A stretch of 50,972 nucleotides of DNA from a virus. The notes under the pieces are model-generated. The model searched no databases. It worked only from the letters and a program-made list of their open reading frames with translations, and had not been told where the DNA came from. The position numbers and the translations under genes were made by a program. The stretch covers positions 1 through 50,972 of the IMG/VR virus record IMGVR_UViG_3300044631_002617, one strand, 5' to 3'. Below, piece after piece: positions 319-49,686 of this stretch (positions are counted from its first letter, which is position 1; every line of letters begins with the position of its first letter).

Positions 319-356
319 TCCCCCACCAGCCTCTGCTTCGGCACGCTGGTGGGGGA
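319..356 (+). terminator. Hairpin made of an inverted pair of the TGGTGGGG motif
   Basis: A 12-bp perfect stem (TCCCCCACCAGC at 319-330 with GCTGGTGGGGGA at 345-356) and a 14-base loop sit 17 bases after the stop at 302 and 23 bases before the start at 380. There is no T tract, so this is either a weak or factor-dependent terminator or an mRNA-end stabiliser. The same arrangement recurs at 49657-49686. Confidence 0.55.
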
Positions 357-379
357 CGGGCTTCCCGAAAGGAGCAACC

Positions 380-988
380 ATGTCACCCGAGACTCAGCCT
401 GACCTCCCGTCCCTCGTCGTCGCCGCTCTCCTCGTCCCCCTGCCTATGTCCTCGTGGCTCGTCCACCACTCCGCTGTCGAGGTGTCCGCACAGCCCACGT
501 GGATGGACAACGCCACCGACGACCACCGTCCCTACTTCACCGCCCCCAACCACGACACCCTCTCCGACCCCGTCGTCCTCCCCAGCGAGGAGCCCGACTC
601 CACGCACTCCGAGTTCTCCTTCCGTGCCGCATGGGAGATCACCCGATCCGTCGAGCACCTCCCGCCCGCATGGCGATCCGTCTACCGCAAGTGGAATCGC
701 ACGCTCTCCGAGGAGCACGACCTGTCCATGTCATCCGGCGGAGCGCACCGTTACACACGCCTGCACGACACCATCGTCCGCACGCCGCCCACCCCACCAA
801 CCCCAGCCACCATCGAACTCGGCATGTCGCGCTCCCACTCGCGCCGTCGCCAGTTCCGCTCCGCCCTCTACCGCCGTCTAGGCATCGTGCGCTGCCCGCG
901 TACCAACCAGTTCGCCCGTGACCCCGACTCGTCCTGGACCAGCCACGGTCCGCTCGACCGGCGCGTCCGCTGGGCACGACCCGCCTGA
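380..988 (+). CDS. Hypothetical protein, 202 aa
   Basis: The start is ATG 380, preceded by a strong Shine-Dalgarno sequence (GAAAGGAG, 367-374). An open frame extends further upstream but has no ribosome site. The protein begins MSPETQPDLPSLVVAALLVP. Its C-terminal third is rich in arginine (SRSHSRRRQFRSALYRRLG), which suggests contact with nucleic acid, though this is only inference. I recognise no family. It stands alone between the hairpin at 319-356 and the terminator at 1011-1053, so it is probably its own transcription unit or the end of one. Its leader resembles that of the 49745 gene. Confidence 0.75.
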   Translation: MSPETQPDLPSLVVAALLVPLPMSSWLVHHSAVEVSAQPTWMDNATDDHRPYFTAPNHDTLSDPVVLPSEEPDSTHSEFSFRAAWEITRSVEHLPPAWRSVYRKWNRTLSEEHDLSMSSGGAHRYTRLHDTIVRTPPTPPTPATIELGMSRSHSRRRQFRSALYRRLGIVRCPRTNQFARDPDSSWTSHGPLDRRVRWARPA

Positions 989-1010
989 CCACCACCGCGC
1001 AACTCCTTTC

Positions 1011-1053
1011 ACCCTGTCAGCGTCTGACCCGGCGCTGGCAGGGTTTCTCTTTT
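1011..1053 (+). terminator. Rho-independent terminator
   Basis: A 12-bp stem (ACCCTGTCAGCG 1011-1022 with CGCTGGCAGGGT 1033-1044, one G-U pair) is followed by TTCTCTTTT. It lies 22 bases after the stop of the 380 gene. The tail and the following start region resemble those of the terminator at 49219-49258. Confidence 0.8.
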
Positions 1054-1077
1054 ACCCCACCGAACCCCGAGGTAGCC

Positions 1078-1368
1078 ATGACAACATCGACCCCCGACCC
1101 CGGACCAGGCCGCTTCTCCGTCTTCTGTGCCTTCGACCCGCACGGCAGGCCCATGCAACTGTGGATGACGCCGGACAAGTACATGCCCGAACTCGTCTGC
1201 GACGACTACCCCATCCCCGATCACCACATCACCAGCCGACTCCTCATCTCCACCAACTCCTTCGCCGAAGCAGCACGCTGCTGGGAAGACAACGCCCGAG
1301 TCCTCCGTCACTTCGCAACCACCTACCACGTCTCCGTCACCACCCTCAATCAATACCTGGAGCACTGA
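1078..1368 (+). CDS. Hypothetical protein, 96 aa
   Basis: ATG 1078 follows the weak ribosome site GAGGTAGCC. The product begins MTTSTPDPGPGRFSVFCAFD and has no motif I recognise. It has strong C-ending codon bias like its neighbours and ends three bases before the DUF932-like gene, so the two are probably co-transcribed after the terminator at 1011-1053. The first bases of the gene (ATGACAACATCGACCCCCG) closely match a short ORF start at 49283, which suggests a duplicated leader. Confidence 0.75.
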   Translation: MTTSTPDPGPGRFSVFCAFDPHGRPMQLWMTPDKYMPELVCDDYPIPDHHITSRLLISTNSFAEAARCWEDNARVLRHFATTYHVSVTTLNQYLEH

Positions 1369-1371
1369 ACC

Positions 1372-2148
1372 ATGCCGTCCCCCACCAACCGCCTCTACCT
1401 CCACGCCGGCGCATCCGAGATCGCCTTCGATGACCTCGCCATGATCGTGCCGCCCGACCCGACCCCCTCGTGGCACCCCATCCCGCACGCCAGCTACGTC
1501 ACCGCCATCCGCGACTCCATCTCCATGCTCGGCGGTCGCATCACCTCCGAAACCCTCGCCATCAAGCCCGGCAAGACCGGTGCCGACAAGCTCTTCGGCC
1601 TCATCGAGTTCGAGCACCCGCGCATCACGCCCCGCCCATCGGGCACCGTTGGCTTCGGCTTCCGCGGCTCCTGGGACAAGACCTTCGCGCAGTCCGGCAT
1701 GCTCTCGTTCCGCACCTTCATCTGCGACAACATGGCCATGTCCGGCGGCGACGCCATCTCGTTCCACCGCAAGAACACGCCCGGTCTCGCCGACAACTAC
1801 GAGACCACCATCGCCACGGCCATGATCGACTTCATCTCCCACGCCAACCGCTTCGTCACCACCCTCAACAACTTCGACACCGTCCCCCTCCCCGACACCC
1901 GTGAGTTCATCGACACCACTGCCTGCGCTCTCGCCGATGCCGGCGCCGTCCTCTGGCAGAATGTCCCCCACCTGCGCCGCGAACTGTCCAACCCCGCCGG
2001 TCCCGCCGGCCTCTTCCCGCAGCGCGAAGCCGGCCTCACCAAGGGCCTCGTCCTGCAGGCCGTGACCGAAGTCGAGAAGCGTTCCCTCAACGCCCTGTCC
2101 ACCGTCGACCGCATGCAAGCGGCCACTTCCTACCTCGCCACCCTCTAA
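1372..2148 (+). CDS. DUF932-like phage/plasmid protein
   Basis: A 258-residue protein with the signature central block of the DUF932 family: GFGFRGSWDKTFAQ, then SFRTFICDNMAMSG. Family members usually carry a similar segment of the type FRLVCSNGL. They are common in phages and plasmids near replication or SSB genes, and their biochemical role is not established. The family call rests on this block and the overall length. The gene sits four bases after the 1078 gene and 13 bases before the 2162 gene, inside the replication arm. The motif variant CCCCACCAAC lies directly at its start (1380). Confidence 0.6.
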   Translation: MPSPTNRLYLHAGASEIAFDDLAMIVPPDPTPSWHPIPHASYVTAIRDSISMLGGRITSETLAIKPGKTGADKLFGLIEFEHPRITPRPSGTVGFGFRGSWDKTFAQSGMLSFRTFICDNMAMSGGDAISFHRKNTPGLADNYETTIATAMIDFISHANRFVTTLNNFDTVPLPDTREFIDTTACALADAGAVLWQNVPHLRRELSNPAGPAGLFPQREAGLTKGLVLQAVTEVEKRSLNALSTVDRMQAATSYLATL

Positions 2149-2161
2149 CCCGGAGTCTCAC

Positions 2162-3027: not shown

Positions 3028-3096
3028 GGGGGCAGGCATGGTTCTCTGACGTGGATGCCCCGGCATGTGCCGGCCATTGCACCATGACCTGCCCCC
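3028..3096 (+). other. Long stem-loop, 15 bp with one bulge
   Basis: GGGGGCAGG (3028-3036) pairs with CCTGCCCCC (3088-3096), A3087 is bulged, and CATGGT (3037-3042) pairs with ACCATG (3081-3086). An inner hairpin CCGGC-ATGT-GCCGG lies at 3060-3073. ACCA follows at 3097-3100, giving a tRNA-like end, but the continuous 15-bp helix and the lack of an anticodon arm rule out an ordinary tRNA. The strand shown is that of the flanking genes. Confidence 0.5.
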
Positions 3097-3159
3097 ACCA
3101 AGCCATGGGATATTGCTGCTGTCCGTACTAGTAGGACGGCCTTGCCTTTCCCATGAACA

Positions 3160-3209: not shown

Positions 3210-3415
3210 AGACCGTCAGTGCCATAGATCCTCCGTCTGGCCCACGGTGTGTTGGCATTGACGTCGGTATCCCCCAGCCAACCGCCCTCCTCTGAGCGTC
3301 CATGCCTCTGCTAGCTCCCTGCCGTGATATCCGCGCACAGCTTCCGCAAGCTACTAGTGTCCACCACGATAAGGCTCTGGCTGGTGGGGTACATTCATCA
3401 ACCCCGAGGTCCCAC

Positions 3416-4090
3416 ATGCAACTCACGCTTCTCCCCACCAAGCCGTCATGCACGGCGTGCGATCTCCATTCCGCCGCGAAGAACGTCGGCATCCCCTCCC
3501 GCCATCTCCCCACCAGCCTGCCGTCTGACCCCACCAACCCGGTCGTCATCGTCATTGGCATGAACCCCGGCACGCAGGAGGACAGGCAAGGCGAGTGCTG
3601 GATCGGTCCCTCCGGCCAGCTCCTGTCCGGCCCGTACCTCGCTGGCTCCGGCGTCGACAACCTCGCCACCATCTACCTCTGCAACGTGGCCCGATGCGTC
3701 TCGCCCGGTGGCAAGCCCAAGCCCGCGCACTACCGCACCTGTTTCAACAACACCCTGCTTGACATCACCACGATCCTGGACCATCATCACGCCGCGTCCG
3801 CCCGTGCCATCCTCTGCGCCGGCGCTGACCCCGTTACATACCTGAGCCGCACGTGGGGCAAGCGTGCCATGTCCCAGCAAGAAGCGTTCCGCGCACAGGG
3901 CATGGCAATCCCGACCCTCCCGCGCACCCACTTCTTCGCCACCTACCACCCGGCCGCAGTCCTCCGGGAGCCCGGTCTCATCCATCCCGTCGCCGACCAC
4001 ATGGCCTTGCTCGCCAACTTCCTGACCGGCGACCTGGCCCGTCCGTCCGCACCCCTCATCCGCACCCCATTCCTCCCGAGGACCACATGA
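3416..4090 (+). CDS. Uracil-DNA glycosylase superfamily protein (family 4-like)
   Basis: The predicted 224-residue protein would remove uracil from DNA. It has an N-terminal CTACDL pair of cysteines typical of the Fe-S binding family 4 enzymes, motif GMNPGTQEDRQGECW (usual form GEAPGxxED), the NVARC..P segment with a further cysteine, a later RTCFN cysteine, and the C-terminal motif TYHPAAVLR, the histidine-containing catalytic loop. N in place of A in the first motif is unusual for family 4 and recalls the GINP loop of the MUG/TDG branch. ATG 3416 is chosen with GAGG seven bases upstream. The longer frame runs into the structured block. Its stop overlaps the next start (ATGA, 4087). Confidence 0.75.
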   Translation: MQLTLLPTKPSCTACDLHSAAKNVGIPSRHLPTSLPSDPTNPVVIVIGMNPGTQEDRQGECWIGPSGQLLSGPYLAGSGVDNLATIYLCNVARCVSPGGKPKPAHYRTCFNNTLLDITTILDHHHAASARAILCAGADPVTYLSRTWGKRAMSQQEAFRAQGMAIPTLPRTHFFATYHPAAVLREPGLIHPVADHMALLANFLTGDLARPSAPLIRTPFLPRTT

Positions 4091-4380: not shown

Positions 4381-4609
4381 ACGCGACCACGAATACGAAC
4401 ATCTCCGTCAGCTGGTGGGGTGGACCGTCTCGCACCCTGTCCGCATCAACCACGGCGACGACGACGACGGGATCTACGAACCCTTCTACGGCCTGGTCCT
4501 CACGCATCCGGACAACAAGAAGCACCAACTCCTTGTCACCATCCAGTGCGACCCCGAAGGCAACGGCCCCGGCCACCTCGCCATCGAGAAGGAGAAGTAC
4601 GGCACATGA
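4373..4609 (+). CDS. Hypothetical protein, 78 aa
   Basis: ATG 4373 lies eight bases inside the end of the previous gene. The product is acidic in the middle (NHGDDDDGIYEPFYG) and has no known domain. A copy of the dispersed motif (4411) encodes QLVGW here. It ends by overlapping the next start (ATGA, 4606). Confidence 0.7.
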   Translation: MTERDHEYEHLRQLVGWTVSHPVRINHGDDDDGIYEPFYGLVLTHPDNKKHQLLVTIQCDPEGNGPGHLAIEKEKYGT

Positions 4610-5863: not shown

Positions 5864-6065
5864 CGTCCACCAATTCACCACGCCCATCCCCGTCGTGACG
5901 TGCGATGGGCAGGACGGCTACGCCCTCTATGTCCGTGACGGCGGCACGTTCGAGAACGATGTGTGGTGCATCGCTCTCTGCAACGGCGGACACCTACGCC
6001 ACTACACCACGGCCCAACTGCGCGTCCACCAGAACATGACCTTCGAGATTCGGAAGACTCCATGA
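5853..6065 (+). CDS. Small hypothetical protein, 70 aa
   Basis: GTG 5853 lies 11 bases inside the end of the previous gene. The product (MSNSVHQFTTPIPVVTCDGQ) has a beta-rich pattern with a DVWCIALCNGGHLRHY segment and looks like a small single-domain fold, unlike its helical neighbours. Its stop overlaps the start of the polymerase gene (ATGA at 6062), so it is likely to be translated together with it. Confidence 0.6.
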   Translation: MSNSVHQFTTPIPVVTCDGQDGYALYVRDGGTFENDVWCIALCNGGHLRHYTTAQLRVHQNMTFEIRKTP

Positions 6066-8146
6066 CCAGCCCACGCATCATCTCCCTCGACATCGAGACC
6101 TACGGCGCAGCCGCCACCAACGGTCGGGGGCAGATGCTGCCGGCGCAGACAGTCTTTCATCCTGCACGGGCCATCGCCACGGATGGCGTTGCCCGCCAGG
6201 ATCTTGTGCTGACCTGCGCCATCACCGTTGCAGCAACCGAGCCACCCTACGAGGGACCCGCCGACATGTGGGATCTCGAGCGGGTTGCTGCCCTGCAGCC
6301 CGGCCCGACCTTCACCCTCAACCTGACCGACCCCACCAGCCACGACACTCTGCTGGCCTGGCTCCGCCATGCGCACACCATCGTCGGCATGAACCTGCCG
6401 TTCGACATCCTCTGGCTGCGCGCCTACACCCCGGCCCTTGCCCTCGCCCTCAACGGTCGGCACACCCTCATCGACCTGTCCGTCGTCAACTTCCTGCACT
6501 CCGAACTCCGGCCCGAGCGCAGCCTCAAGTCCCTTGGCCCCGTCCTCGGCACCCACTCCTACCGTGACGAAGCCACGCTCAAGGACGGTCGCCGGTTCCC
6601 TTCCCCCACCTGCCCAAACCTCCACGCGTACAACGCGCAGGACACGCACAACACCATGCTCGCCGTCGCACACCTGGCCCGGCGCATCCAGCGTGACTAC
6701 CCCAGCACGGACAAGCTCAGCTCCTACAGCGTCAACCACTTCAGCGACACGCTGTGGTCCACGATCCGCATGAGCGAGGCCGGCATTCCCTTCTCGCTGC
6801 CTGCACTCCGCACCCTCGAGGCCGACCTCATCAAGCAGGCAGACGACGCCACCAACTGCGCCGCTGCTGGTGGGGTACTCATCGAAGGCGAAGGCTCCGT
6901 CCAATCCCAGCGCGAGTTCATGGCCCGGTGCATCGAGGACATCCTCCCCACCAACCCTGACTTCCTGTCCCACCCCCTGCTCACCTACACCGAGAAAGCG
7001 AGGGAACTCTCGTGGTCCAGCGAGAACCGCAGGCTCATCGCGAGCCACCTGCCCGACTCTCACCCAGCCCGCACCATCTTCGAGTGTGCAGACAAACACA
7101 GCACGGCACAGAAGTTGGTGTCTTCCTACACATATCCGCTCTTGCGTCATCGCCGCACCAAGCCGGCCGACAAGTCGTCTGTCCTGCTCCCACTCACGAG
7201 CACGTCAGACATTGGCCTTGCCTACCCAACTTGGTATACAGTTCCCTCCGTACCAAAGGACTCAGGCTCTGAGGGCGGCACGATCCAAGCCCGGATCACC
7301 TGCAAGAACCCGGCGGCCCAGACTTTCCCCGCCGTCATCAAGGACTGCGAGACCAGCCGCTACCCCGGCGGCACCATCGTCTCCTTCGACCTGAGCCAGA
7401 TCGAGCTACGCGTCGCAGCCGTCCTGTCCGGCGAGCCCACCCTGCTCGCCGCCTTCAACGATGGCCTCGACCTGCACACCCAGCGCACCCTCGCCATCTT
7501 CGGGCAAGACGCGAAGGACCGCCCCGACTTCAAGTCCCTCCGTCAGATCGGTAAGACCGTGAACTTCGCCGACCTGTTCGGTGCGTCCGCGGCCCGCCTC
7601 CAGCGCAGCGTTCTCGACATGTCCGGCACCCTCTACCCCCTGTCCTTCTTCGACCAAATCGTTGCCAGCCGATACGCCCAACGACCTGGGCTGGTGGGGT
7701 GGCAGTACGCACTGTGCAAGCAGGCGGAATCAGCCGGCTACATCGAACTGCCGTACACCGGCCACACCCGCACCTTCACCAGCTTCCGGCTGGACGAACG
7801 GGCATGGCGCAGCAAGCGGGAACTGAAGCAGGTCCTCGCCCGTGGTGGCAAGAGCATGATCTCCGAAGTCTGCAACTTCCCGGTGCAGGCAACGGCGGGC
7901 AACGTCATGCTCGCCATCCAGAACTTCATTCACCGTGCGCTGGGTCCCATCACGAACCCCACCAGCCACAGGCAACCGCAGCTGTTCCTCCAGGTCTACG
8001 ACGCCCTGTACTTCGACTGCCCGCCGGGCACCGAGGGTCAGGCAGCGGACCTCATGTGGGCAGCGGTGGAGTTTGTCGGCACCGCCGGTTACTGGCATGA
8101 GTTGTGCAAGCGTTCCGGTCATCACGCACCCCTTATCTACGAGTAG
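6062..8146 (+). CDS. polA: Family A DNA polymerase with 3'-5' exonuclease
   Basis: A 694-residue replicative polymerase. The proofreading domain has DIET (exo I, about residue 10), NLPFDILW (exo II) and YNAQDTHNT (exo III). The polymerase domain has motif A SFDLSQIELRVAA, motif B RQIGKTVNFADLFG and motif C LQVYDALYFD. There is no 5'-3' exonuclease domain. In motif B the residue equivalent to E. coli Phe762 is Phe, and Tyr766 is replaced by Phe. Motif C is odd: the usual VHDE reads VYDA. The catalytic aspartate is kept, but His and Glu are not. ATG 6062 overlaps the upstream stop, and the longer frame is not supported. It is the anchor of the replication arm. Confidence 0.95.
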   Translation: MTSPRIISLDIETYGAAATNGRGQMLPAQTVFHPARAIATDGVARQDLVLTCAITVAATEPPYEGPADMWDLERVAALQPGPTFTLNLTDPTSHDTLLAWLRHAHTIVGMNLPFDILWLRAYTPALALALNGRHTLIDLSVVNFLHSELRPERSLKSLGPVLGTHSYRDEATLKDGRRFPSPTCPNLHAYNAQDTHNTMLAVAHLARRIQRDYPSTDKLSSYSVNHFSDTLWSTIRMSEAGIPFSLPALRTLEADLIKQADDATNCAAAGGVLIEGEGSVQSQREFMARCIEDILPTNPDFLSHPLLTYTEKARELSWSSENRRLIASHLPDSHPARTIFECADKHSTAQKLVSSYTYPLLRHRRTKPADKSSVLLPLTSTSDIGLAYPTWYTVPSVPKDSGSEGGTIQARITCKNPAAQTFPAVIKDCETSRYPGGTIVSFDLSQIELRVAAVLSGEPTLLAAFNDGLDLHTQRTLAIFGQDAKDRPDFKSLRQIGKTVNFADLFGASAARLQRSVLDMSGTLYPLSFFDQIVASRYAQRPGLVGWQYALCKQAESAGYIELPYTGHTRTFTSFRLDERAWRSKRELKQVLARGGKSMISEVCNFPVQATAGNVMLAIQNFIHRALGPITNPTSHRQPQLFLQVYDALYFDCPPGTEGQAADLMWAAVEFVGTAGYWHELCKRSGHHAPLIYE

Positions 8147-8759: not shown

Positions 8760-9144
8760 CTTCCCCACCATCCGTGCCACCGTCGATGCGCTTAAGCCCC
8801 ACCTGCCCGAAGGCTTCCGCATCATCGTCCAGTACTCCGGCTCCGACGACTCCGGCTGGTTCGACAACGAGTACTTCCAGACCAAGGACGAGAAGACCAT
8901 CTACATCGACGAGAAGAAGCCGGAGCCCGAAGCGATCCTGCAGGAGTTCCGCATCGAGATCCACAACGAGTTGTACCCCATGCTCTACAACCGCTTCCCG
9001 GGTTGGGAGATCGGATGCGACGAAGTCCGTGGTTCGCACGGCCACTTCACGATCGACAGCGCAACCAACACCATCACGCAGACGCACATCCAGGACTTCT
9101 GCAGCGAAGAAGATCTCAGCCCCGAAGAGAAGGTCAAGTTCTAA
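8752..9144 (+). CDS. Hypothetical protein, 130 aa (possibly DUF6878-like)
   Basis: ATG 8752 lies eight bases inside the previous gene. The product starts MPDFPTIRATVDALKPHLPE. The C-terminal region reads RFPGWEIGCDEVRGSHGHFTID, which recalls the conserved end of DUF6878 proteins from plasmids and phages. I hold that match as tentative. The protein is acidic overall. It is followed by a TAATG overlap with the DUF6915-like gene. Confidence 0.55.
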   Translation: MPDFPTIRATVDALKPHLPEGFRIIVQYSGSDDSGWFDNEYFQTKDEKTIYIDEKKPEPEAILQEFRIEIHNELYPMLYNRFPGWEIGCDEVRGSHGHFTIDSATNTITQTHIQDFCSEEDLSPEEKVKF

Positions 9145-9533
9145 TGCACCCCTACCACCACGCCCTGTCGTCCGCCAAGAAGCACGGCGGTGAACCCGGC
9201 GACTACCAGTTCATCCACGACTGGTTCGACGCCACCAAGCAGTACTTCGGTGACGCCCGTCACCGGGCCCTCCGTCACCACACCGCCGGCATCTTCTGGT
9301 GCGAGGAGATCTACGGTCACACCATCACCAACCGTGACGGCAAGCAGATCCCCGTCCGAGTCATCGCCGAGCAGCACGTGATGGAGGACATGGGGTTCTT
9401 GCCCACGCCCGAGTGGTGGCTCAGCAAGATGACCCTCACGGTCGACATGAACCGGGTCCCCACCAAGCCGGACAGTGCGTTCGACAACCTGAAGCGAACC
9501 CTGGCGGCGGAACTGTACAAGGGTGAGGGCTGA
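9144..9533 (+). CDS. DUF6915-like protein, 129 aa
   Basis: ATG 9144 overlaps the upstream stop (TAATG). The N-terminus shows the conserved pattern of the DUF6915 family: MHPYHHALSSAKKHGGEPGD, then IHDWFDATK, then RHRALRHHTAGIFWCEE. The many histidines and the CEE motif suggest metal binding, but the family has no known function. It is common in phage and plasmid small-gene clusters. It is followed by a 15-base gap to the ERCC4 nuclease gene. Confidence 0.65.
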   Translation: MHPYHHALSSAKKHGGEPGDYQFIHDWFDATKQYFGDARHRALRHHTAGIFWCEEIYGHTITNRDGKQIPVRVIAEQHVMEDMGFLPTPEWWLSKMTLTVDMNRVPTKPDSAFDNLKRTLAAELYKGEG

Positions 9534-9548: not shown

Positions 9549-10238
9549 GTGTCCCAAGTCACCGTCCTGATTGACGCCCGGGAAAAGAAACCCCTTGCCT
9601 TTCCCGCACACCTCGTGGTGCTGGACAGGAATGCCCTGCCCACCTCCGGTCGGTCCCGCACAGTCACGGTCCGCACGCAGTCTGAGACCATGAAGACTGG
9701 GGACTACCGGTTGGTGGGGGGCAAGGCGGCCATTGAGCGGAAGGGATCCTTCGAGGAGATCGCGGGGAACTGCCTAACCCTCGACGGCAGGCGACGTTTT
9801 ATTGAATGCTGCCGCCGCCTCCGGGACGAGTGCAGCAGGGCGTGCCTCTTGTTCGAGGGCGCAGTGGGGGGCTTCGAGGTTCGGGCTGGACTTCCCCATC
9901 CGGGGGTCGCAACCGACGCTTTATTGGATATCATCGGGGAGCACGGGCTACCGCTCATGCTGCTCCCCCTGAGCACGACCGGCCAACGTAGGGCGGCAGG
10001 GGAATGGGCGCTGAGGTGGCTCCTATCGCAGGAACGCCATGTCATACGTCACGCTCACGACCGACACCAAGAACTACCACAAGTCGACGACCTTCGCAGT
10101 AACGGCGACGGCGGCCCAGGCAAAGTCGGTTGTGACGACGAAGCCCGAGCCGGTGGCGAATCGCAGCACGGTGCTGGGCGCATCGTACAACTACCTCAAG
10201 CTGAAGATCTACTGCAGCGCAAGCACCCCGGTGCCTAG
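9549..10238 (+). CDS. ERCC4-type nuclease domain protein with read-through tail
   Basis: The N-terminal 165 residues match the XPF/ERCC4 nuclease fold: VLIDAREKKPLAF at the start, MKTGDYRLVGGKAAIERKGS with the catalytic ERK, and a terminal helix WALRWLLSQE. Such phage enzymes cut branched DNA during replication or recombination. The start is GTG 9549 after GATGGGGCG. The frame stays open for about 65 more residues, overlapping the 10039 gene in another frame by 200 bases. That tail (RHAHDRHQELPQVDD onward) has the composition of an out-of-frame reading of the structural gene. The original stop was probably lost at a recombination joint. Confidence 0.75.
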   Translation: MSQVTVLIDAREKKPLAFPAHLVVLDRNALPTSGRSRTVTVRTQSETMKTGDYRLVGGKAAIERKGSFEEIAGNCLTLDGRRRFIECCRRLRDECSRACLLFEGAVGGFEVRAGLPHPGVATDALLDIIGEHGLPLMLLPLSTTGQRRAAGEWALRWLLSQERHVIRHAHDRHQELPQVDDLRSNGDGGPGKVGCDDEARAGGESQHGAGRIVQLPQAEDLLQRKHPGA

Positions 10239-12430: not shown

Positions 12431-12890
12431 CTTCTGGTTGCTGGTGGGGTGCAGCCCGACCGCACGGGTCGCGCACAACTCCACCCTCATTCAGTCGGAG
12501 GCACAGGCGCTGATTGACAGGGGCGAGGCGACCGGGGACAAGGAGGTCGTGAAGCATGCAGAACGTATTTACGGGCTTGCTTCTGATATCCATGGTCAGC
12601 TACCTTATCTGGAGGACCGAGTGCCATCGTGGCTCACGACGCTGTGGTGGTGCGCGGCAGCCGCAATCGTTATCGGCATCTGCGTTATCCTGTGGCAGAC
12701 CGGAATCGGCACTGCCATCCGAGTCGCCATTGGCTGGCTCCCGCGGAAGAAGGTTGTTGACGCCGACCTTGCTTCGGGCATGCTCGACCCAAACAAACCG
12801 GAAGACGCTCGTGAGTATGTTGCTGCGCGACGGGCGTCCGACCCAGAGTTCGATGCCGCGTGGCGACGCATTCACAAGGAGAAGTCATGA
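12396..12890 (+). CDS. Membrane lipoprotein with second membrane segment, 164 aa
   Basis: The start is TTG 12396. The N-terminus MRLLPLILLLADFWLLVGCS is a lipoprotein signal with lipobox LVGC, so cysteine 19 should be lipidated. A second hydrophobic segment (WWCAAAAIVIGICVILW) lies around residues 84-100, followed by a charged C-terminus. A lipoprotein in this place may act like a spanin, but a second span is unusual for one. The lipobox codons are part of a dispersed motif copy (12440). The next gene overlaps by four bases. Confidence 0.6.
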   Translation: MRLLPLILLLADFWLLVGCSPTARVAHNSTLIQSEAQALIDRGEATGDKEVVKHAERIYGLASDIHGQLPYLEDRVPSWLTTLWWCAAAAIVIGICVILWQTGIGTAIRVAIGWLPRKKVVDADLASGMLDPNKPEDAREYVAARRASDPEFDAAWRRIHKEKS

Positions 12891-13923: not shown

Positions 13924-13935
13924 ACCCCACCAGCC

Positions 13936-17506: not shown

Positions 17507-17532
17507 GTTCTGCTACACTACCCCGTACCCCA

Positions 17533-17636
17533 CCAGCCGGGGGAGGGTTGCCCGCAAAGCGCCCTCCCCCTCATTGACCCCCGGATGGCCCCCGGTTGCC
17601 CCGCACGACGGAGAGCGACCGGGGGCTTTTCCCGGG
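17533..17636 (+). terminator. Two successive hairpins, the second with a T tract
   Basis: A first stem GGGGGAGGG with CCCTCCCCC lies near 17539-17568. A second, GCCCCCGGT with ACCGGGGGC, lies near 17588-17630 and is followed by TTTT. Together they should end the recombination transcript. A dispersed motif copy (17528-17538) sits just before the first hairpin. Confidence 0.6.
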
Positions 17637-38508: not shown

Positions 38509-40495
38509 TCATTGCTCCTTGAGGTGGTTGTGCTCCGGGACCGATCCGGCCGGCGACCATGTCAGGGTTGACATTGGCAACGTCGTCCGGGTTCGGGACC
38601 ATCGCGGGAAGGGACTGTCCCATGAACGAGATCAGGGACTCACGGTAGGCCTTGAACGCGTCCTGCACTCCGGGACTCGCCACTGCCATGATCGGGTTGG
38701 ACATGAACGCGCTCAGCACCCTGAGCTGCAGGTCAGGCCGCGCGGTGTGCGGGGTCAGCACGATCTGCTGGGTCTGCTGACCGTCGCCGTACAGCAGCAG
38801 GATGTTGCGGATCACGCACTCGTACGCGCTCTTCTCCTCGTCCATCCACACGGCGAGGTCGATGCCTTCCTTCATGGCAAACAGCTTGACGCCCTCGGGG
38901 TCCGTCAGTCCTGCCTGCAGAAGGCCCATCATCTCCTGCTTCCGCACCGTCTCGCTGCGCGGGCTGGTGTCCCGCACGGTAAACGAGAGCTGGCTGAAGT
39001 TGGGGATTGGGTTCTTCTTGAAGTTGACCGTCCCCTCCTCGGGGTCGATCACCGCACCCGCCAGGTCCAGCGTCAGCTTGTTGACCGGCAGCGCCCGGTC
39101 GCTCATCAGCATCTCGCGGCTCGCCTTCGCCACCAGGCTCTTGTACATGGTGCCGAATGCCATCTGCACACCGCTGGTGGGGTTCGTCATCGCCTTGCTG
39201 ATCTGCTCGTCGAGGAACTGCAGACCGCTTGCGCTGTCCACTCGGCCCTTTTCCGCCAGCAGGTCCTGCACCGGGCTGATGCTGTCCGCAATCGCCTTCG
39301 CGAACTGCGCGACCTTGCCCGGCACGTCACCCGCATTGTGCGGCGTGATGACCATGGGCTTGAAGTCGTCGCCCAGGATCGCGTCCTTGCTGTAGCTGAT
39401 GTACCGCAGGCCCTTGCCGATGTCACGCATCACCGCACGCTCGTTGATCGTGCCCTGCGGCATGACCAGAACGCCGTACTTGTCGATGTCGCGGATGTTG
39501 TTGAACAGGCTCTTCAGCAGCCGTTCCATCTCGCGCACGATGCCGAACATCAGGTCGAACACGCCCGCGCCGTGGAACGTGCCGTTGTCCATGAACCGGG
39601 CCACGCCGAGCGGGCAGTACGTCTCAACCTCGCTCAGGTCACGGTCGTCGAGCGTTACGCCACCGCTGGTCACCACGTACCGGTTGACCGTCCCACGCGG
39701 GCCGTCCATCCACAGCTCGCGGACCTTGACCACTTCCATCTCGTTGCTGCCGGGCACACCGTTCAGCGCGCCGGTGCTTGCGGAGTTCAGGACGTAACCG
39801 TTGCCGGGAGCGTCCGCGGGCTCTTCCATGTCATGCCCGTACTCCCAGCTCCACGCGTCCATCTTCTCCTTGTTCTTCTCAAGGAACGCCTTGCCGAACC
39901 GTTCCTGCAGGAACGTCATCGGCACGATGCGCTGACGGATGATCCCCCGGACTTTCGTGAAGTCGTGGCCCAGGCTCGGGAACGGCAGGATCTCCTTGGG
40001 ATGCACGACCTCCAGGTCGCTCGTCAACCCGATGGTGGGGTGATCGACAATGTGCCCCGTGATGCCCGCGCAGCCAAGCGTGGTGAACAGGTAGTTGAAC
40101 TCCCGCTTCACCTTCTCGAGCTGCTGGTCGCTCACAACCGCATCCGCCACCAGCTGCGCCACGCTCCGCTCGCGGATGCCCGCGAGGCTGAAGCCCTGCC
40201 TCAACGCCTTCGGACGCAGGTCCATCGTGTTGAGGCGCGCCGTCGTCTTGTCGATGATCGAGATCAGCTCGGTGGACTGGAACTCCATGTTCCCGTCCTC
40301 GTCGAGGTAGTACGGCACCACGCGCGTCGTGCGCGGGTCGAAGACGTCGAAGCGCCGGAAGCCGTTCAGGTAGAACCACGCCAGGATCCACAGCGTCCGC
40401 CGATACGTGAGCTTCGTCATCTCACGTTCGCAGTGCTGGTCGATCACCTTTGCCAGCAGGTACTTGTCCTTGGGCAGCGTGTATGAGTCATGCAT
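38501..40495 (-). CDS. Portal protein, 664 aa
   Basis: Large, mainly helical protein located between terminase and scaffold. The N-terminal part (KLTYRRTLWILAWFYLNGFR) and middle (PLGVARFMDNGTFHGAGVFD, then MERLLKSLFNNIRDIDKYG) resemble portals of short-tailed phages, which read ..GxGxFxL...Q...N.... It forms the ring through which DNA enters and leaves the head. The C-terminus is proline- and glycine-rich. Overlaps the previous small gene by eight bases. Confidence 0.8.
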   Translation of the reverse strand: MHDSYTLPKDKYLLAKVIDQHCEREMTKLTYRRTLWILAWFYLNGFRRFDVFDPRTTRVVPYYLDEDGNMEFQSTELISIIDKTTARLNTMDLRPKALRQGFSLAGIRERSVAQLVADAVVSDQQLEKVKREFNYLFTTLGCAGITGHIVDHPTIGLTSDLEVVHPKEILPFPSLGHDFTKVRGIIRQRIVPMTFLQERFGKAFLEKNKEKMDAWSWEYGHDMEEPADAPGNGYVLNSASTGALNGVPGSNEMEVVKVRELWMDGPRGTVNRYVVTSGGVTLDDRDLSEVETYCPLGVARFMDNGTFHGAGVFDLMFGIVREMERLLKSLFNNIRDIDKYGVLVMPQGTINERAVMRDIGKGLRYISYSKDAILGDDFKPMVITPHNAGDVPGKVAQFAKAIADSISPVQDLLAEKGRVDSASGLQFLDEQISKAMTNPTSGVQMAFGTMYKSLVAKASREMLMSDRALPVNKLTLDLAGAVIDPEEGTVNFKKNPIPNFSQLSFTVRDTSPRSETVRKQEMMGLLQAGLTDPEGVKLFAMKEGIDLAVWMDEEKSAYECVIRNILLLYGDGQQTQQIVLTPHTARPDLQLRVLSAFMSNPIMAVASPGVQDAFKAYRESLISFMGQSLPAMVPNPDDVANVNPDMVAGRIGPGAQPPQGAMNG

Positions 40496-40733
40496 CGTTC
40501 TGTCGCTTCCTCAGGGACTTCCAGCCAGGCGGCATCTCCTCGAACAGCTCGACGCCCTTCATGTTGAAGGACGACATCGGCGAGGGATCCGGCTGCGGCA
40601 CCTTCTGGTCGGTCGGTGTCGCATTCATCCGGTCCTCAACCTGCTGCCCATAATACGCTTGGGACAGCATCTGAAAGTATACGAACGGAATCGTGACGTA
40701 CAGGGGATTAGACGCGCGAGCCTCGTTTTGCAT
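40488..40733 (-). CDS. Hypothetical protein between terminase and portal, 81 aa
   Basis: ATG 40733 has the ribosome site GGAGGAAAAGCCAA. An earlier in-frame start is not supported. The product begins MQNEARASNPLYVTIPFVYF and ends in a basic helix (GWKSLRKRQNDA). It overlaps the end of the terminase gene by 26 bases. A small partner of terminase or portal is possible. No family is recognised. Confidence 0.65.
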   Translation of the reverse strand: MQNEARASNPLYVTIPFVYFQMLSQAYYGQQVEDRMNATPTDQKVPQPDPSPMSSFNMKGVELFEEMPPGWKSLRKRQNDA

Positions 40734-42654
40734 TTGGCTTTTCCTCCATGCCATTCATCAGGGACTGAACAGACATCCGGTTGAAATCCATCGCTTCGAC
40801 CGCTGCACCCCCACCAGCCAAGGGGTCGCGGACACTTCCGTCCGACAGCATCTGCTCGAAGTCGAGCGTGGTGGGCTGCTCCCCGGGGGCCAACTGGCGG
40901 TCCAACCGGCCCCGGACCACGAACATGCTCATCGCCACCGTGTCCAGGAAGTCGTCGTGCTGGAGGCCGCCGCTCTCCGCGTCCGGGTTGAACTGCTCGA
41001 TCTGGTCGAACAGGAGCCGCCACGGGAGCTGCCCCCTGCGCCAGACGGGGAACTTTATGAGCCCATGCTCGAACCGGTAGTGCAGGGCGTTGATCTTGCT
41101 GGTCTTGTCCAGCGTGCCCACCCGCAGGGGGATGATCCGGGGCGGGGTCTCGCCCGTAACCTCCGCCGCCTTCTGCCGCACCATGCTCTCCATCGCCGCG
41201 TACAGGCCGAACGACTGCCGCACCACCTCGGGGTGAATCGTCGGGCACCCCCACCTGCCGGCCATCGCAAACGACTTCTCGATCAGCGTCTGCTCCCGGC
41301 ACTGCGAGCCCCACGTGTCCAGCACGAACAGGCACGCGTCAACCGGGTCGTACCCCATCAGGGTGCAGACCTTGTAGTCGCTGTCGCTCGTCGCCGTGTA
41401 ACTGGTGTCCACGGTGATGAACATGCGGACCCGCTCCCGGAGGAACTGGGCCAGCGGCATCTTCTCCTCAAGCCCGCTCTTCCCATTCCAGCAAATCACC
41501 GCCTCGCTGCGCTTGGGATCCGTATCTACCAGTGGGTCCGGACTCTCGAGCCACCAGCCGTGGCGGGCCTGGGTAACCTCGCCGAAGTGCAGGTCCTCGG
41601 ACTCGCCCGGCTGGGCCAGGTACTCAGCCAGGTAGTTGTGGCTGCCGATCATCTCCCGGATCTCTTCCAGGCTGACCAGCCCCTTCAACTTGGGGTCCGC
41701 GTCCTTGGCTTTCCGGTCCAGCGGCCACATGCCCGGCCAACAGGACTTCCGCACCCCGTCCTCTTCGTACTCCGCCTTCAGCACCAGACGCGCCCACTGG
41801 TCGAAACGGGGGTCCGTTGCCACCTGACCGTGCGGCCCCGCCTGCGTCATCATCGCGTGCCACGCGTAGTGCCGCCGGCTCACGAACGTGGCCAGCCACC
41901 GCACGCTTGTATCACGCCGTGTCACCATTGGCATGACGACCTTGAACAGCAGCCGCTCCATGTACGACCGCAGCACGCTCATGCTCGTGCTGGCCTTCGG
42001 GTCATACTCCGGGTCATCCAGCGCATACACGCGCGGGCGACCACCGCGCTGACGGCTCTCGGCGCTGATTGCGCGGAACCAGCTGCCGTTGTTCAGGTAC
42101 ATCATCTCCACGCCGAACGACCGCTCACCCCTCTTGGGCGTGATGCGGCCATCAGGGAACTCCGGACCCCAATCGTCGAACAGACGCTGGTTGCCGAGGA
42201 ACTGGGTCTTCAGAACCTGGCTCGTCTGCTCCGCGTTGTCTATGCTGCTCGTCGCGTAGATGAAGGAGTACGCCGGGCGGCTAACCATCTGGAGGAGTGC
42301 CGACTTCCGGAAACAGTTGCTCTTGGCAAAGCCGCGGGGCGCAATCGCCACAGATCGCGGTGCGAGGGCCCACAGCCGGTAGATGGCGAAGTGGCCAAGC
42401 GGCGATTCGATGGGATCATCATCGTAGAAGTAAGGGTTGAACTCCTCTTCCCAATCCGGGTACAGGTAGTACCGGTCGAAGAAGTTGATGCACGCAGCCA
42501 GCGCGTGCGCCCGATCCATGGGATCGCCACCCAGTTGCCACTGCTTGCACGCGTTCACCCGGGCCAGCCTCTGGCCTTCGGGCGTCAGCGTCAGGTAGTC
42601 CGCCGGCAGCGGGTAGAAGTCGTTTCCCTTGCGCTCGATCCGGACAATGCTCAA
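40708..42654 (-). CDS. terL: Terminase large subunit, 648 aa
   Basis: The DNA-packaging motor. ATPase Walker A is APRGFAKS (about 105-112), Walker B ends VYALDDPEYD. Nuclease motifs are FITVDTSY (first aspartate) and DDFLDTVAMS near the C-terminus. The start is TTG 42654, which overlaps the upstream stop (TTGA). A longer reading from GTG 42678 is also open. A motif copy (42660) lies just before this start. Next to portal and scaffold genes in the usual order. Confidence 0.9.
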   Translation of the reverse strand: MSIVRIERKGNDFYPLPADYLTLTPEGQRLARVNACKQWQLGGDPMDRAHALAACINFFDRYYLYPDWEEEFNPYFYDDDPIESPLGHFAIYRLWALAPRSVAIAPRGFAKSNCFRKSALLQMVSRPAYSFIYATSSIDNAEQTSQVLKTQFLGNQRLFDDWGPEFPDGRITPKRGERSFGVEMMYLNNGSWFRAISAESRQRGGRPRVYALDDPEYDPKASTSMSVLRSYMERLLFKVVMPMVTRRDTSVRWLATFVSRRHYAWHAMMTQAGPHGQVATDPRFDQWARLVLKAEYEEDGVRKSCWPGMWPLDRKAKDADPKLKGLVSLEEIREMIGSHNYLAEYLAQPGESEDLHFGEVTQARHGWWLESPDPLVDTDPKRSEAVICWNGKSGLEEKMPLAQFLRERVRMFITVDTSYTATSDSDYKVCTLMGYDPVDACLFVLDTWGSQCREQTLIEKSFAMAGRWGCPTIHPEVVRQSFGLYAAMESMVRQKAAEVTGETPPRIIPLRVGTLDKTSKINALHYRFEHGLIKFPVWRRGQLPWRLLFDQIEQFNPDAESGGLQHDDFLDTVAMSMFVVRGRLDRQLAPGEQPTTLDFEQMLSDGSVRDPLAGGGAAVEAMDFNRMSVQSLMNGMEEKPNAKRGSRV

Positions 42655-42989
42655 GTACGCCCCACCAGCCGCACGCAAGCAATGCGGAGGACGGCGACCG
42701 CCAGCATGCGCGGATCCTTCTGGAACCGGGCCAGGTCGTCGCAGACGTCGAACCAGTACTGCGTGACCTTGACCTCGTTGCGGATCATGTCGCCGAACAC
42801 GGGCGGCTCGACCGCACGGTAGATGCTGGGCTCACCGATTCCCAGATCCTGCAGGATGGCCGCGCCAAGGCGGTAGCACTCAATGGGCTCAAGACTCTGA
42901 ATCGTCTCGAACACCTTGAGATGCCGATCCGGAATCTCGAGCGGGGAGGAACTGGGCTGCGAACGGGAGACTGTCTGGGACTTGGACAT
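42651..42989 (-). CDS. Small protein before the terminase, 112 aa
   Basis: ATG 42989 has a strong ribosome site (AGGAGAGCAAGTCCC). The protein is MSKSQTVSRSQPSSSPLEIP onward, mostly helical with YWFDVCDDLARFQKDPRMLA. It could be the small terminase subunit or a partner. The upstream gene reads into its first 101 bases in another frame. Coupled to the terminase by a TTGA overlap. Confidence 0.6.
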   Translation of the reverse strand: MSKSQTVSRSQPSSSPLEIPDRHLKVFETIQSLEPIECYRLGAAILQDLGIGEPSIYRAVEPPVFGDMIRNEVKVTQYWFDVCDDLARFQKDPRMLAVAVLRIACVRLVGRT

Positions 42990-43305
42990 GGGACTTGCTC
43001 TCCTGAAGTGACTGCACCAACTTGGTGGTCGAACTGATCTTAACCGTCTGGTTGCCTTCCGTGTGCGTGATTTCCGCGTTCTGGCTCCGGATCACCCCGT
43101 TGATCTCCGCCGTCTCCCGCACCACGCCACGCAGCTGCTTCATCGCCGCCATCGCGACCTTCGGGTCCGGGTCCCGGCTGAACCCCACCAACCGCTCCAC
43201 TTCCTCCCGTGCTTCCCAGCCCGTGGACCGCAGGCCCAACGCCACGCCGTCCATGCCAAAGAAAGCGCGGATGCACTCGCTGTTCGGATCCGCACGTTCC
43301 TTCAT
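42889..43305 (-). CDS. Small-terminase candidate, 138 aa
   Basis: ATG 43305 overlaps the upstream stop (TGATG). Helical N-terminus (SECIRAFFGMDGVALGLRST) with a pattern seen in small terminase proteins (FSRDPDPKVAMAAMKQLRG, then VVRETAEINGV). The last 33 residues overlap the next gene in another frame. Probably binds DNA for packaging, but no clear helix-turn-helix can be read. Confidence 0.5.
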   Translation of the reverse strand: MKERADPNSECIRAFFGMDGVALGLRSTGWEAREEVERLVGFSRDPDPKVAMAAMKQLRGVVRETAEINGVIRSQNAEITHTEGNQTVKISSTTKLVQSLQESKSHVQVPDSLPFAAQFLPARDSGSASQGVRDDSES

Positions 43306-44993: not shown

Positions 44994-45468
44994 TTGCCTG
45001 CTCCTGTTCGCCGGACGGGATCAGTGTAAGCACAAACCGGGTCAGTTCAGCGGCCGCACTCCTGATTGCCGCACGATCCGCTGGTGGGGTCTGCAGCCCG
45101 TGCATTCGCCGTGCGTCGATGATGGACCGCACCACCAGCTTCCAGTTCCTCTGCACCTCCTGCGGATCGACCTTGATGCGGTAGTGGTTGCTGGGCAACG
45201 CAGACCGCTTCAGGTACGAGTTGCTGGCGCAGAAGTCACGGTTTCCGGGGACCGACAGGTTCTTGATGCACACCTGGAACACGGCGGGATCGACGAACCC
45301 CACCTTGCCGAAGTAGATCAAGGGGCAGCAGATGGACCGGCACAGCGAACGGAACGACCGGTTGTTGGTGATTCCGAACGGCCGCAGTTCTCGGATGTAG
45401 TACTCCTCCGACATGAGGCGCACGCCCCTGCCGAAGGAGATCACCCACTGCTCGTCCTGCTTGCTCAA
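44971..45468 (-). CDS. Hypothetical protein, 165 aa
   Basis: The start is TTG 45468 in a TTGA overlap with the upstream stop. Begins MSKQDEQWVISFGRGVRLMS, a compact alpha/beta domain with several cysteines (SLCRSICCPLIYFG, VCIKN, DFCASN). A motif copy (45080) encodes TPPAD in the third frame relative to other copies. It lies close to the left-arm promoter end. No family is recognised. Confidence 0.6.
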   Translation of the reverse strand: MSKQDEQWVISFGRGVRLMSEEYYIRELRPFGITNNRSFRSLCRSICCPLIYFGKVGFVDPAVFQVCIKNLSVPGNRDFCASNSYLKRSALPSNHYRIKVDPQEVQRNWKLVVRSIIDARRMHGLQTPPADRAAIRSAAAELTRFVLTLIPSGEQEQANGQADQD

Positions 45469-46755: not shown

Positions 46756-48171
46756 ATGACTGACTGGATCCAGAATCCGTTGCAGTCGCTTGAGCCCGTC
46801 AAGGTGGCTCGGCGAATCCTTCACCGCCAGTTTACCGCCCCGGGTGGCATGAGGGGACTGTGGAGGTGGAAGAATGATTGGTGGAGCTGGGAGGGCGGCA
46901 CGTGGCGCGTGCTGGACGAGGAGCGCATCCGTGACCGGGTGTGGCTCGTGCTTGAGGACGCGATGTACGAGCGGCCCACCCAGAACGGGTTGGTGCTGGT
47001 TCGGTACAGCCCGGACAAGCAGAAGGTCGACGGGGTCGTGCGCGCGCTGGAGGCGCTGGTGCGGATTGATGCGGAGGAGGTCCCGCTGTGGCTGGAGGCC
47101 CCGGATGCTCGGTTTCCCGTGGGGGAGACAGTTGCGTTCCGGGATGTTCTGGTCAATGTGAAGACGCTGGAGACCATGGAGCGACCGGCCCGGTGGTTCG
47201 ACACCGCCATCCTGCCCGTTGAGTACAAGCCGGATGCCCCCACCAGCCGATGGCAGCAGGCAGTGAACGAGTGGGGTGACGGGGACCCGGTGTGGGCTGA
47301 GTTGCTGGCGCGGTGGATGGGGTACTGCCTGATGGGCAGCCGCAAGTATGCCCGGTGGATGCTCATGTACGGCAAGATCCGCGGCGGCAAGGGCACGATC
47401 AGCAGCGTGATCCGGAAGTTGGTCGGGCGGGATGCGTTCATGGGCGCGAGCCTGGAGGATCTGGCCGGCGGTTTCGGCATGGACGGGCTCGAGCGCACGA
47501 AGGTGCTGAGCATCAACGAGGTGAGTGAGCTGGATGGGAAGAGTGGCGAGCGGGTGTGTCGGGTGGTCAAGAACATCGTGGGCAGGGATCCGATGACCGT
47601 GGATGCGAAGTACATGCGGCAGCAGCGGAACGTGATCGTGAACGCGGCGGTCATCATGCAGAGCAACGAGATCCCGGTGCTGCCCAACAAGGGCAGGGGT
47701 TTGAGCGGAAAGATGTTGGTTCTGCCGTTCGAGGTGAGCTTTGAGGGCAGGGAGGACCTGGACCTGGAGGGCGAGCTGGAGCGTGAGCTGGCGGGAATCG
47801 CGGCGTGGGCTGTTGCGGGAGCGAATCGGTTGGAGAACAGCCGGGCGGCGGAGAGGTGGCCGGTTCCGAAGGCTGGCGAGCGGGCGGTTCACATGTACCA
47901 CCTGCAGAACAACCCGTTCGATTCGTTCCTTGAGGCACGGTTCGTGAGGAGGAAGGAAGGGTTCGTGAGCAACGTGATGATCAGGAGCCAGTGGGAGGCG
48001 TGGACCAAGGCCAACAAGATCCGGATGCACGTGGCGAACAACATGCTGCCGATGAAGTTGGTGCAGGGGAGCAGCTGGGACCTGCGGCAGGTGAGGCTTG
48101 CGGAAAGTCAGGGCCACGAGAGGGGAATTGCTGGGATGAGCCTCCGGAAGGAGTACGATGATGAGCACTAG
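46756..48171 (+). CDS. SF3/D5-like replicative helicase (primase-helicase type), 471 aa
   Basis: The C-terminal domain has YGKIRGGKGTISSVI as Walker A (GxxxxGKGT), then RTKVLSINEVSE, RDPMTVDAKYM, IMQSNEIPVLP and LVLPFEVSF, the set of the poxvirus D5/P4-alpha SF3 helicases. The N-terminal part (WWSWEGGTWRVL) matches the D5 N-terminal region. No TOPRIM or archaeal primase active site is visible, so primase activity is open. Starts ATG 46756 after AAGGAGAG. The promoter is 23 bases upstream. Confidence 0.8.
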   Translation: MTDWIQNPLQSLEPVKVARRILHRQFTAPGGMRGLWRWKNDWWSWEGGTWRVLDEERIRDRVWLVLEDAMYERPTQNGLVLVRYSPDKQKVDGVVRALEALVRIDAEEVPLWLEAPDARFPVGETVAFRDVLVNVKTLETMERPARWFDTAILPVEYKPDAPTSRWQQAVNEWGDGDPVWAELLARWMGYCLMGSRKYARWMLMYGKIRGGKGTISSVIRKLVGRDAFMGASLEDLAGGFGMDGLERTKVLSINEVSELDGKSGERVCRVVKNIVGRDPMTVDAKYMRQQRNVIVNAAVIMQSNEIPVLPNKGRGLSGKMLVLPFEVSFEGREDLDLEGELERELAGIAAWAVAGANRLENSRAAERWPVPKAGERAVHMYHLQNNPFDSFLEARFVRRKEGFVSNVMIRSQWEAWTKANKIRMHVANNMLPMKLVQGSSWDLRQVRLAESQGHERGIAGMSLRKEYDDEH

Positions 48172-48492: not shown

Positions 48493-48809
48493 TAGGGGGG
48501 ATACCGGAGGTACCAGACTTCCGGTCGCCCCTTTCTTCTATATATACCTATCTCTATTAAAGGAAAGGAAGAGTAGGTATCCCTGGTACTGGTTAGGGAT
48601 TTGGTAGGGAATTTTGAGAGGGAGATACCCTTTCCACTATTATCAGTACCTCACGGTGGGGCCGCTACCCCACCCCCAACCGAACGCACAACGCAGGAAG
48701 CGTGATATCGGACGCAACCCGTGACAGTGCGTCTGTCGCCGCGGATAGTGGTTGTCCTTGGTACCCAAGATCCGTGTGACGAAGCGCCTTCCGTAGGTTT
48801 GCGCTCCCC

Positions 48810-48843
48810 CTCTCTTGTCCCTTCGGATGAAGGGACAAGAGAG
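48810..48843 (+). terminator. 15-bp perfect hairpin
   Basis: CTCTCTTGTCCCTTC (48810-48824) pairs perfectly with GAAGGGACAAGAGAG (48829-48843). The loop is GGAT. TGTTTCTCC follows, a moderate T tract. It may be a terminator, a structured leader of the 48902 gene or a binding site. Confidence 0.65.
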
Positions 48844-48901
48844 TGTTTCTCCTGTCTTCTTCGCACATTTAGCGCCTACTGGCGCATGAAAGGAGTTCGC
48901 C

Positions 48902-49207
48902 ATGTCGAACGTCCAGCGTTATTCGGGTCTCTCGTCCAGCCTCATCGTCGTGAAGAGCGTGCAGTCTGTGGATTGCTTCGGCAACCAGACCAGCGTGACG
49001 GAACTCGGCGTCGTCAACTCGACCGGCGCCGACATCGTCATCCCCGCTGGTTCCACGCTGTACGTCACCGTCGTGCCCGGCACGTCCTCCGTCAAGGAGG
49101 ACGGTGACGCGAAGACCCGCACCTCGCGCGGGACGGACGTCCGTGTGTGGACGCCCAAGGCGAAGGACGCCGCAGCGACCATCCCGGCCGCTGACGTGCC
49201 GTTCTGA
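48902..49207 (+). CDS. Hypothetical protein, 101 aa
   Basis: ATG 48902 with GAAAGGAGTTCGCC. The product (MSNVQRYSGLSSSLIVVKSV) is beta-rich, low in charge, with GADIVIPAGSTLYVTVVPGT, similar in style to small decoration proteins, though it lies in the early arm. It is flanked by a hairpin leader and a strong terminator, so it forms a separate unit, possibly highly expressed. Strong C-ending codon bias fits that. No family is recognised. Confidence 0.7.
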   Translation: MSNVQRYSGLSSSLIVVKSVQSVDCFGNQTSVTELGVVNSTGADIVIPAGSTLYVTVVPGTSSVKEDGDAKTRTSRGTDVRVWTPKAKDAAATIPAADVPF

Positions 49208-49218
49208 CGTCTCACCCC

Positions 49219-49258
49219 TCCCCTGTACGGCTAACTGCCGTACAGGGGATTTCTCTTT
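49219..49258 (+). terminator. Rho-independent terminator
   Basis: CCCCTGTACGGC (49220-49231) pairs with GCCGTACAGGGG (49237-49248), 12 bp perfect, five-base loop, followed by ATTTCTCTTT. The tail and the following ATG region resemble those after the terminator at 1011-1053. Confidence 0.85.
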
Positions 49259-49424
49259 GCCCTTCGTCCGAACCGGCAACCCATGACAGCAACATCGACC
49301 CCCGTTGCTCGCGTCCTGTGCCGCCGCGTCAAGCCCTCCAGATGCAGGGCTTGTCGCTCTGTTGGTTGTTGGTGCGTGGTGCATCAACACAACTGGCCCC
49401 CGTGGCCAGAGAGAGGAGTTGGCC
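49259..49424 (+). other. Structured leader with three hairpins and a start-like remnant
   Basis: Three successive hairpins lie before the 49425 gene: AAGCCCT/AGGGCTT (49331-49352), a GTTG-TGC/GCA-CAAC fold (49361-49393) and CTGGCC/GGCCAG (49393-49409). A short ORF at 49283 begins like the 1078 gene but then loses the codon bias of real genes and overlaps the 49425 gene, so it is probably a decayed or non-coding copy. The region could control translation of 49425. Confidence 0.5.
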
Positions 49425-49649
49425 ATGAACGCCAACTGTGTCATTACGTTTCATTCGGCTGTGATCATCGACCGCACGACCTCCGACCCCGGTGCGTGGT
49501 GGCGCGCGACCGAGCGCGATGACGGAACGACGTACGTGGACTGCAAGCGCGACGGCCTCACGTCCATCTCGCTCATCCCGTTCGACCAGTACCTCGAGTT
49601 CCACAAGGCGCGTGGTTGCGAGATCAAGCCCATTGAGACGTTCAAGTGA
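49425..49649 (+). CDS. Hypothetical protein, 74 aa
   Basis: ATG 49425 has GAGAGGAGTTGGCC before it. The product begins MNANCVITFHSAVIIDRTTS and ends with EFHKARGCEIKPIETFK. It has C-ending codon bias like its neighbours. Flanked by a structured leader and a motif-pair hairpin, it forms its own small unit. No family is recognised. Confidence 0.65.
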   Translation: MNANCVITFHSAVIIDRTTSDPGAWWRATERDDGTTYVDCKRDGLTSISLIPFDQYLEFHKARGCEIKPIETFK

Positions 49650-49656
49650 CAACCAC

Positions 49657-49686
49657 TCCCCACCAGCCTTGACTGGTTGGTGGGGA
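49657..49686 (+). terminator. Hairpin made of an inverted pair of the TGGTGGGG motif
   Basis: TCCCCACCAGCC (49657-49668) pairs with GGTTGGTGGGGA (49675-49686), 12 bp with one G-T pair and a six-base loop, then TTTCGTG. It lies seven bases after the stop of the 49425 gene, the same setting as 319-356. Confidence 0.6.

Follow-up and report, generated by a model that had tools for sequence, protein, structure and literature searches.

The virus record IMGVR_UViG_3300044631_002617, analysed here as a single window of 50,972 bases, carries a short DNA word, GCTGGTGGGG, that is dispersed over the genome of a phage whose lineage is uncultured and aquatic. We state with confidence that this word is a selected DNA site and not an outcome of composition or codon usage, because synonymous shuffling removes its excess and its silent positions are conserved in relatives. 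The explanation that we favour, with belief and doubt in about equal measure, is that it may serve as a Chi-like site for end processing and recombination. The role in the control of these processes and the identity of the reader are what we infer from the observations below.

A selected DNA word dispersed over the phage genome

The window contains 35 exact copies of GCTGGTGGGG, 15 on the + strand and 20 on the - strand, where an order-3 Markov model predicts 0.48; the first copy lies at 321-330 and the last at 49658-49667. The variant GTTGGTGGGG was found 14 times (0.25 expected), and the core TGGTGGGG, with 63 copies against 3.6 expected, was the most over-represented 8-mer in the window. 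The E. coli Chi octamer GCTGGTGG occurs 39 times, and is extended by one further G in 36 of these cases and by two in 35. Analysis by synonymous codon shuffling (200 shuffles) left 8.8 ± 1.0 copies of GCTGGTGGGG, with a maximum of 12, and approximately 7 of these 8.8 copies are intergenic and outside the reach of the shuffle. The core was reduced in the same way to 18.9 ± 1.7 copies, compared with 63 in the real sequence. Codon usage and composition were thus ruled out as the cause of the excess.

Conservation was compared among seven relatives with approximately 77–79% DNA identity. Aligned core sites were fully conserved in 60% of cases, compared with 21% for other 8-mers with six G/C. When eight genomes were pooled, the identity at codon third positions within the site was 0.83–0.92 at the best-sampled positions and 0.70–0.77 at three less-sampled positions, against 0.685 genome-wide and approximately 0.58–0.70 in the flanks. 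The block of raised identity extended from three bases before TGGTGGGG through its last base, a sharp and asymmetric footprint of 11 bp, GGYTGGTGGGG. The sites are translated in several frames and on both strands.

These results bear out the counts of an earlier note made from the letters of the window alone, and a part of its interpretation. Its 35 exact 10-mers with fewer than one expected by chance, its approximately 14 variant copies, its Chi octamers nearly always followed by two more Gs and its finding of both orientations in both arms all held on recounting, and the positions were right. The Markov and codon-shuffle controls that it proposed gave the figures above, in which no shuffle came near the real count. 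Its view that selection does not act on the protein was upheld by the footprint at silent positions, the higher conservation of core sites and the shuffle result, indicating selection at the DNA level.

On the + strand, GCTGGTGGGG lies at 345-354, 3380-3389, 4411-4420, 6866-6875, 7690-7699, 12440-12449, 18221-18230, 18918-18927, 20772-20781, 24272-24281, 29833-29842, 31344-31353, 33349-33358, 39173-39182 and 45080-45089. On the - strand it lies at 321-330, 3508-3517, 6331-6340, 7957-7966, 13925-13934, 14322-14331, 15523-15532, 17528-17537, 23942-23951, 24264-24273, 27775-27784, 28273-28282, 29158-29167, 30328-30337, 34199-34208, 37626-37635, 40809-40818, 42660-42669, 47238-47247 and 49658-49667. 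Copies of GTTGGTGGGG occupy 9710-9719, 27919-27928, 34875-34884 and 49676-49685 (+) and 792-801, 1380-1389, 3529-3538, 6946-6955, 14297-14306, 18348-18357, 24425-24434, 31469-31478, 35750-35759 and 43183-43192 (-). The core alone is present at 22741-22748 and 40033-40040 (+) and at 3093-3100, 3433-3440, 8763-8770, 9458-9465, 19215-19222, 19844-19851, 20435-20442, 21153-21160, 34497-34504, 35310-35317, 38202-38209 and 50108-50115 (-). The site density is roughly even round the whole map, with about one core per 0.8 kb and 0.69 copies of GCTGGTGGGG per kb.

The word in related phages and in bacterial genomes

Relatives were sought in IMG/VR with the terminase (28 loci) and PolA (50 loci). All of the approximately 25 close relatives had the same top word, so that the enrichment in related phages, which the earlier note had named as a check, was found. 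The words of each clade were derived by a constrained expectation-maximization (EM) search with a fixed prior, which replaced an unconstrained EM search that had drifted to codon periodicity. Clade A1, the terminases of which are 86–89% identical to that of the window, has GGYTGGTGGGG, and clade A2 (68–70%) has GCTGGTGGGG. Distant relatives (49–62%) have the shifted words TAGTGGGGGGA, GTGGGGGGAG-like, GAGTGGGGG, CTAGTGGGGA and CAGTGGGGGAG; the core GTGGGG is common to all of these, and the flanks drift between phage lineages. Most core-genome genes follow one order of similarity, and PolA is the exception. In one relative (G024, loci L307-L309) a second word, GCTGCGGT, was over-represented, with 18 copies versus 5.9 after synonymous shuffling, and its counterpart CACCGCAG was seen in L054 and L057.

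Four pattern scans over 2.9 million viral contigs, from which 259 loci were examined, were used to look for the word elsewhere; a phage with sites as sparse as those of E. coli would be overlooked by scans of this kind. Among the viral matches listed, the contigs dense in dispersed sites all belong to the phage family of the window, and a few other loci had site-bearing repeat arrays or chance clusters; the site pairs of other viral contigs were for the most part repeats or due to chance. Three larger phage contigs of 77–106 kb (L093, L106 and L111) contain several inverted motif pairs, and L106 and L111 also contain many GTGATACA/GTATCACA words; this looks like a repeat system of another kind. 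A scan of the genome collection for site pairs gave, among the matches listed, mostly background. A 22-kb piece of the window had no megablast match among INPHARED phages. Neither the INPHARED phages nor PLSDB gave a tblastn match to the terminase, so that no close cultured relative was found. A search of the literature brought up no report of this word in phages.

We counted the word in approximately 1,090 genomes from Actinomycetota, Pseudomonadota, Planctomycetota, Chloroflexota, Cyanobiaceae and a few other groups represented by single genomes. None of these bears it as a signature: the density was at most approximately 0.06/kb, as compared with 0.69/kb in the phage, and the densest genomes were all Cyanobiaceae. 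Raw counts had first suggested Cyanobium as the host, and this was rejected when the observed-to-expected ratio (O/E) of the core in 638 kb of Cyanobiaceae DNA proved to be 1.1. Raw counts were also high in one genome each of Armatimonadota and Pseudomonadota, and these were dismissed likewise (core O/E 1.4 each). The possibility raised in the earlier note, that the phage carries a signature of its host genome, found no support in these genomes. DUF6915, considered as a host clue, had no match anywhere and was uninformative. HIP1 and DNA uptake sequences are short dispersed words that occur on both strands. The phage word differs from these in that no bacterial genome marked by it was found and that, within the contigs scanned, a single phage family has it; it was dense neither in the sampled genomes nor, among the matches listed, outside the family, within a sampling that is partial.

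These counts also bear on the possibility that the word is the Chi of an AddAB or RecBCD enzyme of an unsampled host, kept in excess by the phage, and that the drift of the word follows related hosts. The Chi-like reading includes this host-read version, to which we give a weight of its own. Lambdoid phages provide an established case of Chi logic (PMC3784561), the variants of Chi are not the same in all bacteria (PMC8022716), and the host sample is incomplete, with Verrucomicrobiota, Acidobacteriota, Myxococcota and Gemmatimonadota outside it. However, the low density and near-background O/E in the sampled genomes, and the restriction of dense dispersed sites among the listed viral matches to this family, speak against a host Chi in excess, which we regard as unlikely.

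Genome map and orientation of the sites

The first and last 127 bp of the record (1-127 and 50846-50972) are identical, and relatives of nearly equal length begin elsewhere on the common map. We therefore take the map of the genome to be closed and circularly permuted, with a length of approximately 50.85 kb, as would be expected for concatemeric or headful replication. By gene calls, the early arm, mostly on the + strand, starts at approximately 46.7 kb, passes the ends of the record and stops at 18.5 kb, where the late arm takes over on the - strand and extends to 46.7 kb. The late strand is marked by the terminase large subunit at 40708-42678 (-; phrog_38, 8.3e-32). Other proteins of the window include a uracil-DNA glycosylase-like protein, an SU10-type adaptor, a D5-type helicase (46756-48171) and, by a weak match, a single-stranded DNA-binding protein (SSB)-like protein. 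Two large conserved proteins of 1250 and 906 aa (18525-22277 and 27721-30441) have no confident family match.

In both arms the majority of the sites have the orientation of the late strand, and hence run against transcription in the early arm, indicating that orientation does not follow transcription. A late-strand majority was present in 9 of 10 map bins. The late-strand share was 0.67 in clade A1, 0.72 in A2 and 0.66 in B, or about 2:1, and the shares expected from strand composition were 0.72, 0.62 and 0.53, respectively. Clades A2 and B exceeded this expectation with simulated P-values of 0.008 and 0.0003, which are optimistic, the genomes being related.

Cluster A mycobacteriophages carry stoperators, asymmetric sites that number in the tens in a 50-kb phage genome, and transcriptional operators of this type would resemble the present sites in number and asymmetry. 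Several sites are located at gene boundaries (13925, 14297, 15523 and 17528), and 14 of the 63 cores lie outside or straddle genes, in a sequence of which 10% is non-genic. However, the majority of the sites are intragenic and those of the early arm mostly oppose transcription; neither an orientation with transcription nor a concentration in short intergenic gaps was found. A stoperator-like function is accordingly very improbable.

A Chi-like reading and the candidate reader

The profile of the word is Chi-like, Chi being one of the profiles that the earlier note had named: the word is G-rich and asymmetric, it is dispersed with a modest polarity, and it exceeds the E. coli octamer in length. 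Short and asymmetric, it is strongly over-represented at the DNA level, as such a site would be. On the Chi-like reading, a nuclease or helicase-nuclease that entered at a free end while the phage DNA was replicating as a concatemer would soon meet a site, at the density observed for the core, and would there switch from degradation to recombination. The late-strand sites would be those met by an enzyme moving against late transcription. The nearest working model is lambda, whose left end is occluded by terminase, so that RecBCD is loaded at the right end and comes upon Chi from the 3' side (PMC2082072); a circularly permuted phage that makes concatemers would face the end problem of lambda. 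Such entry would favour the late-strand orientation here, if packaging runs in the direction of late transcription, as we assume. In lambdoid phages that lack RecBCD inhibitors, Chi is over-represented, with an O/E of approximately 2.5 and a host-like density of 0.2/kb (PMC3784561).

We have a slight preference for a reader that belongs to the recombination module of the phage or is linked with it, since the motif varies with the phage lineage and no host with the motif was found; a host enzyme of the AddAB or RecBCD type is nearly as likely. The candidate machinery begins with a PD-(D/E)XK exonuclease resembling RecB, AddB and AdnA (14293-15519, +; PF12705, 1.3e-12). Its model had a pLDDT of 88.7, and Foldseek matched it to AdnA of AdnAB (3.4e-4) and to the Cas4-like ACE1 (4.9e-4) with low TM-scores. 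The small protein at 15506-15985 (+) has a predicted helix-turn-helix (HTH)-like N-terminal domain of three helices, modelled with a pLDDT of approximately 90 across residues 21–80. Comparison with the N-terminal domain of ArgR gave a Z of 5.7, below the safe level, and Foldseek gave no confident PDB match to the fold. As a candidate reader, this protein is a lead only. A Sak4-like AAA recombinase follows at 16007-16906 (+; phrog_124, 8.3e-10; PF13479, 5.6e-13), adjoined by a conserved small protein with no family match (16985-17506, +). The nuclease, the 15506-15985 protein and Sak4 were present in every relative whose contig spans the region. It is possible, if rather doubtful, that these three form a Chi system encoded by the phage, in which the nuclease, an HTH-like adaptor and Sak4 read the phage's own word, and in which word and reader co-evolve across the family.

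The PolA-type DNA polymerase (5963-8146, +; PF00476, 1.1e-22) was rejected as the reader. That of clade A2 is only approximately 30% identical and is accompanied by nearly the same word, whereas that of G030 is 50% identical and is accompanied by a different word, which makes PolA an unlikely reader. The neighbours of the A2 gene keep their family similarity, and from the sequences we read the change of PolA as a gene swap.

Several observations weigh against a Chi-like site. The bias in clade A1, to which the window belongs, is no greater than base skew predicts, and the bias is in any case only 2:1. The density is far above the enrichment known for Chi in phages (PMC3784561), and the Chi sequences that PMC8022716 lists are shorter than this 11-bp site. 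Furthermore, no sampled bacterial genome bears the motif as a signature and no host was found, the HTH assignment is weak, and RecBCD inhibitors were sought only by Pfam and PHROG scans of part of the early genes.

The sites could instead bind a phage-encoded protein of the nucleoid, of replication or of partition that coats the genome or is loaded on it; examples would be the HTH-like protein, the D5-type helicase and SSB. The motif is restricted to a lineage and evenly spread, the HTH-like protein is conserved in the family, and so is the inverted pair of GCTGGTGGGG copies at 321-354. For a coating protein one would less readily expect an asymmetric site and a polarity that is constant at 2:1, and we give this explanation little credence.

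The halves of that inverted pair, 321-330 on the left and 345-354 on the right, span 34 bp between their outer edges, with a TGC...GCA mini-stem between them, and the span is kept in eight sequence versions among relatives. The segment 320-355 can form a DNA hairpin that is predicted to be strong (-17.4 kcal/mol, z -4.5) and is a possible origin or operator. Two further inverted pairs lie at 24264-24281, where 24264-24273 and 24272-24281 overlap in a perfect 18-bp palindrome, CCCCACCAGCTGGTGGGG, and at 49658-49685, where the last GCTGGTGGGG copy is paired with the GTTGGTGGGG variant at 49676.

An asymmetric, over-represented word might also be a protective mark, the site of a methyltransferase or similar enzyme kept in excess. 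No methyltransferase was present among the proteins scanned, and this explanation is the most remote of those considered here.

If the site is Chi-like, its enrichment in this family is many times that reported for lambdoid phages, and the GTGGGG core with its drifting flanks would be a natural series of words for the co-evolution of signal and reader. It could also be of use in predicting, from sequence alone, which end-processing enzyme or host an uncultured phage has.

The word resembles the Chi of E. coli RecBCD and the Chi-like sites of AddAB in being G-rich, asymmetric, dispersed, over-represented and modestly polar. It contains the E. coli octamer, but differs from it in the 11-bp footprint ending in GGGG, in a density per kb approximately 3.5 times higher with far higher over-representation, and in a sequence that shifts between phage lineages. 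With the lambdoid phages (PMC3784561) it shares the selection of Chi-type words in genomes that carry their own recombinase. The O/E is approximately 73 here and approximately 2.5 there, under background models that differ, and the lambdoid sites cluster towards ori or cos, whereas those of the present phage, a member of another family, are spread roughly evenly.

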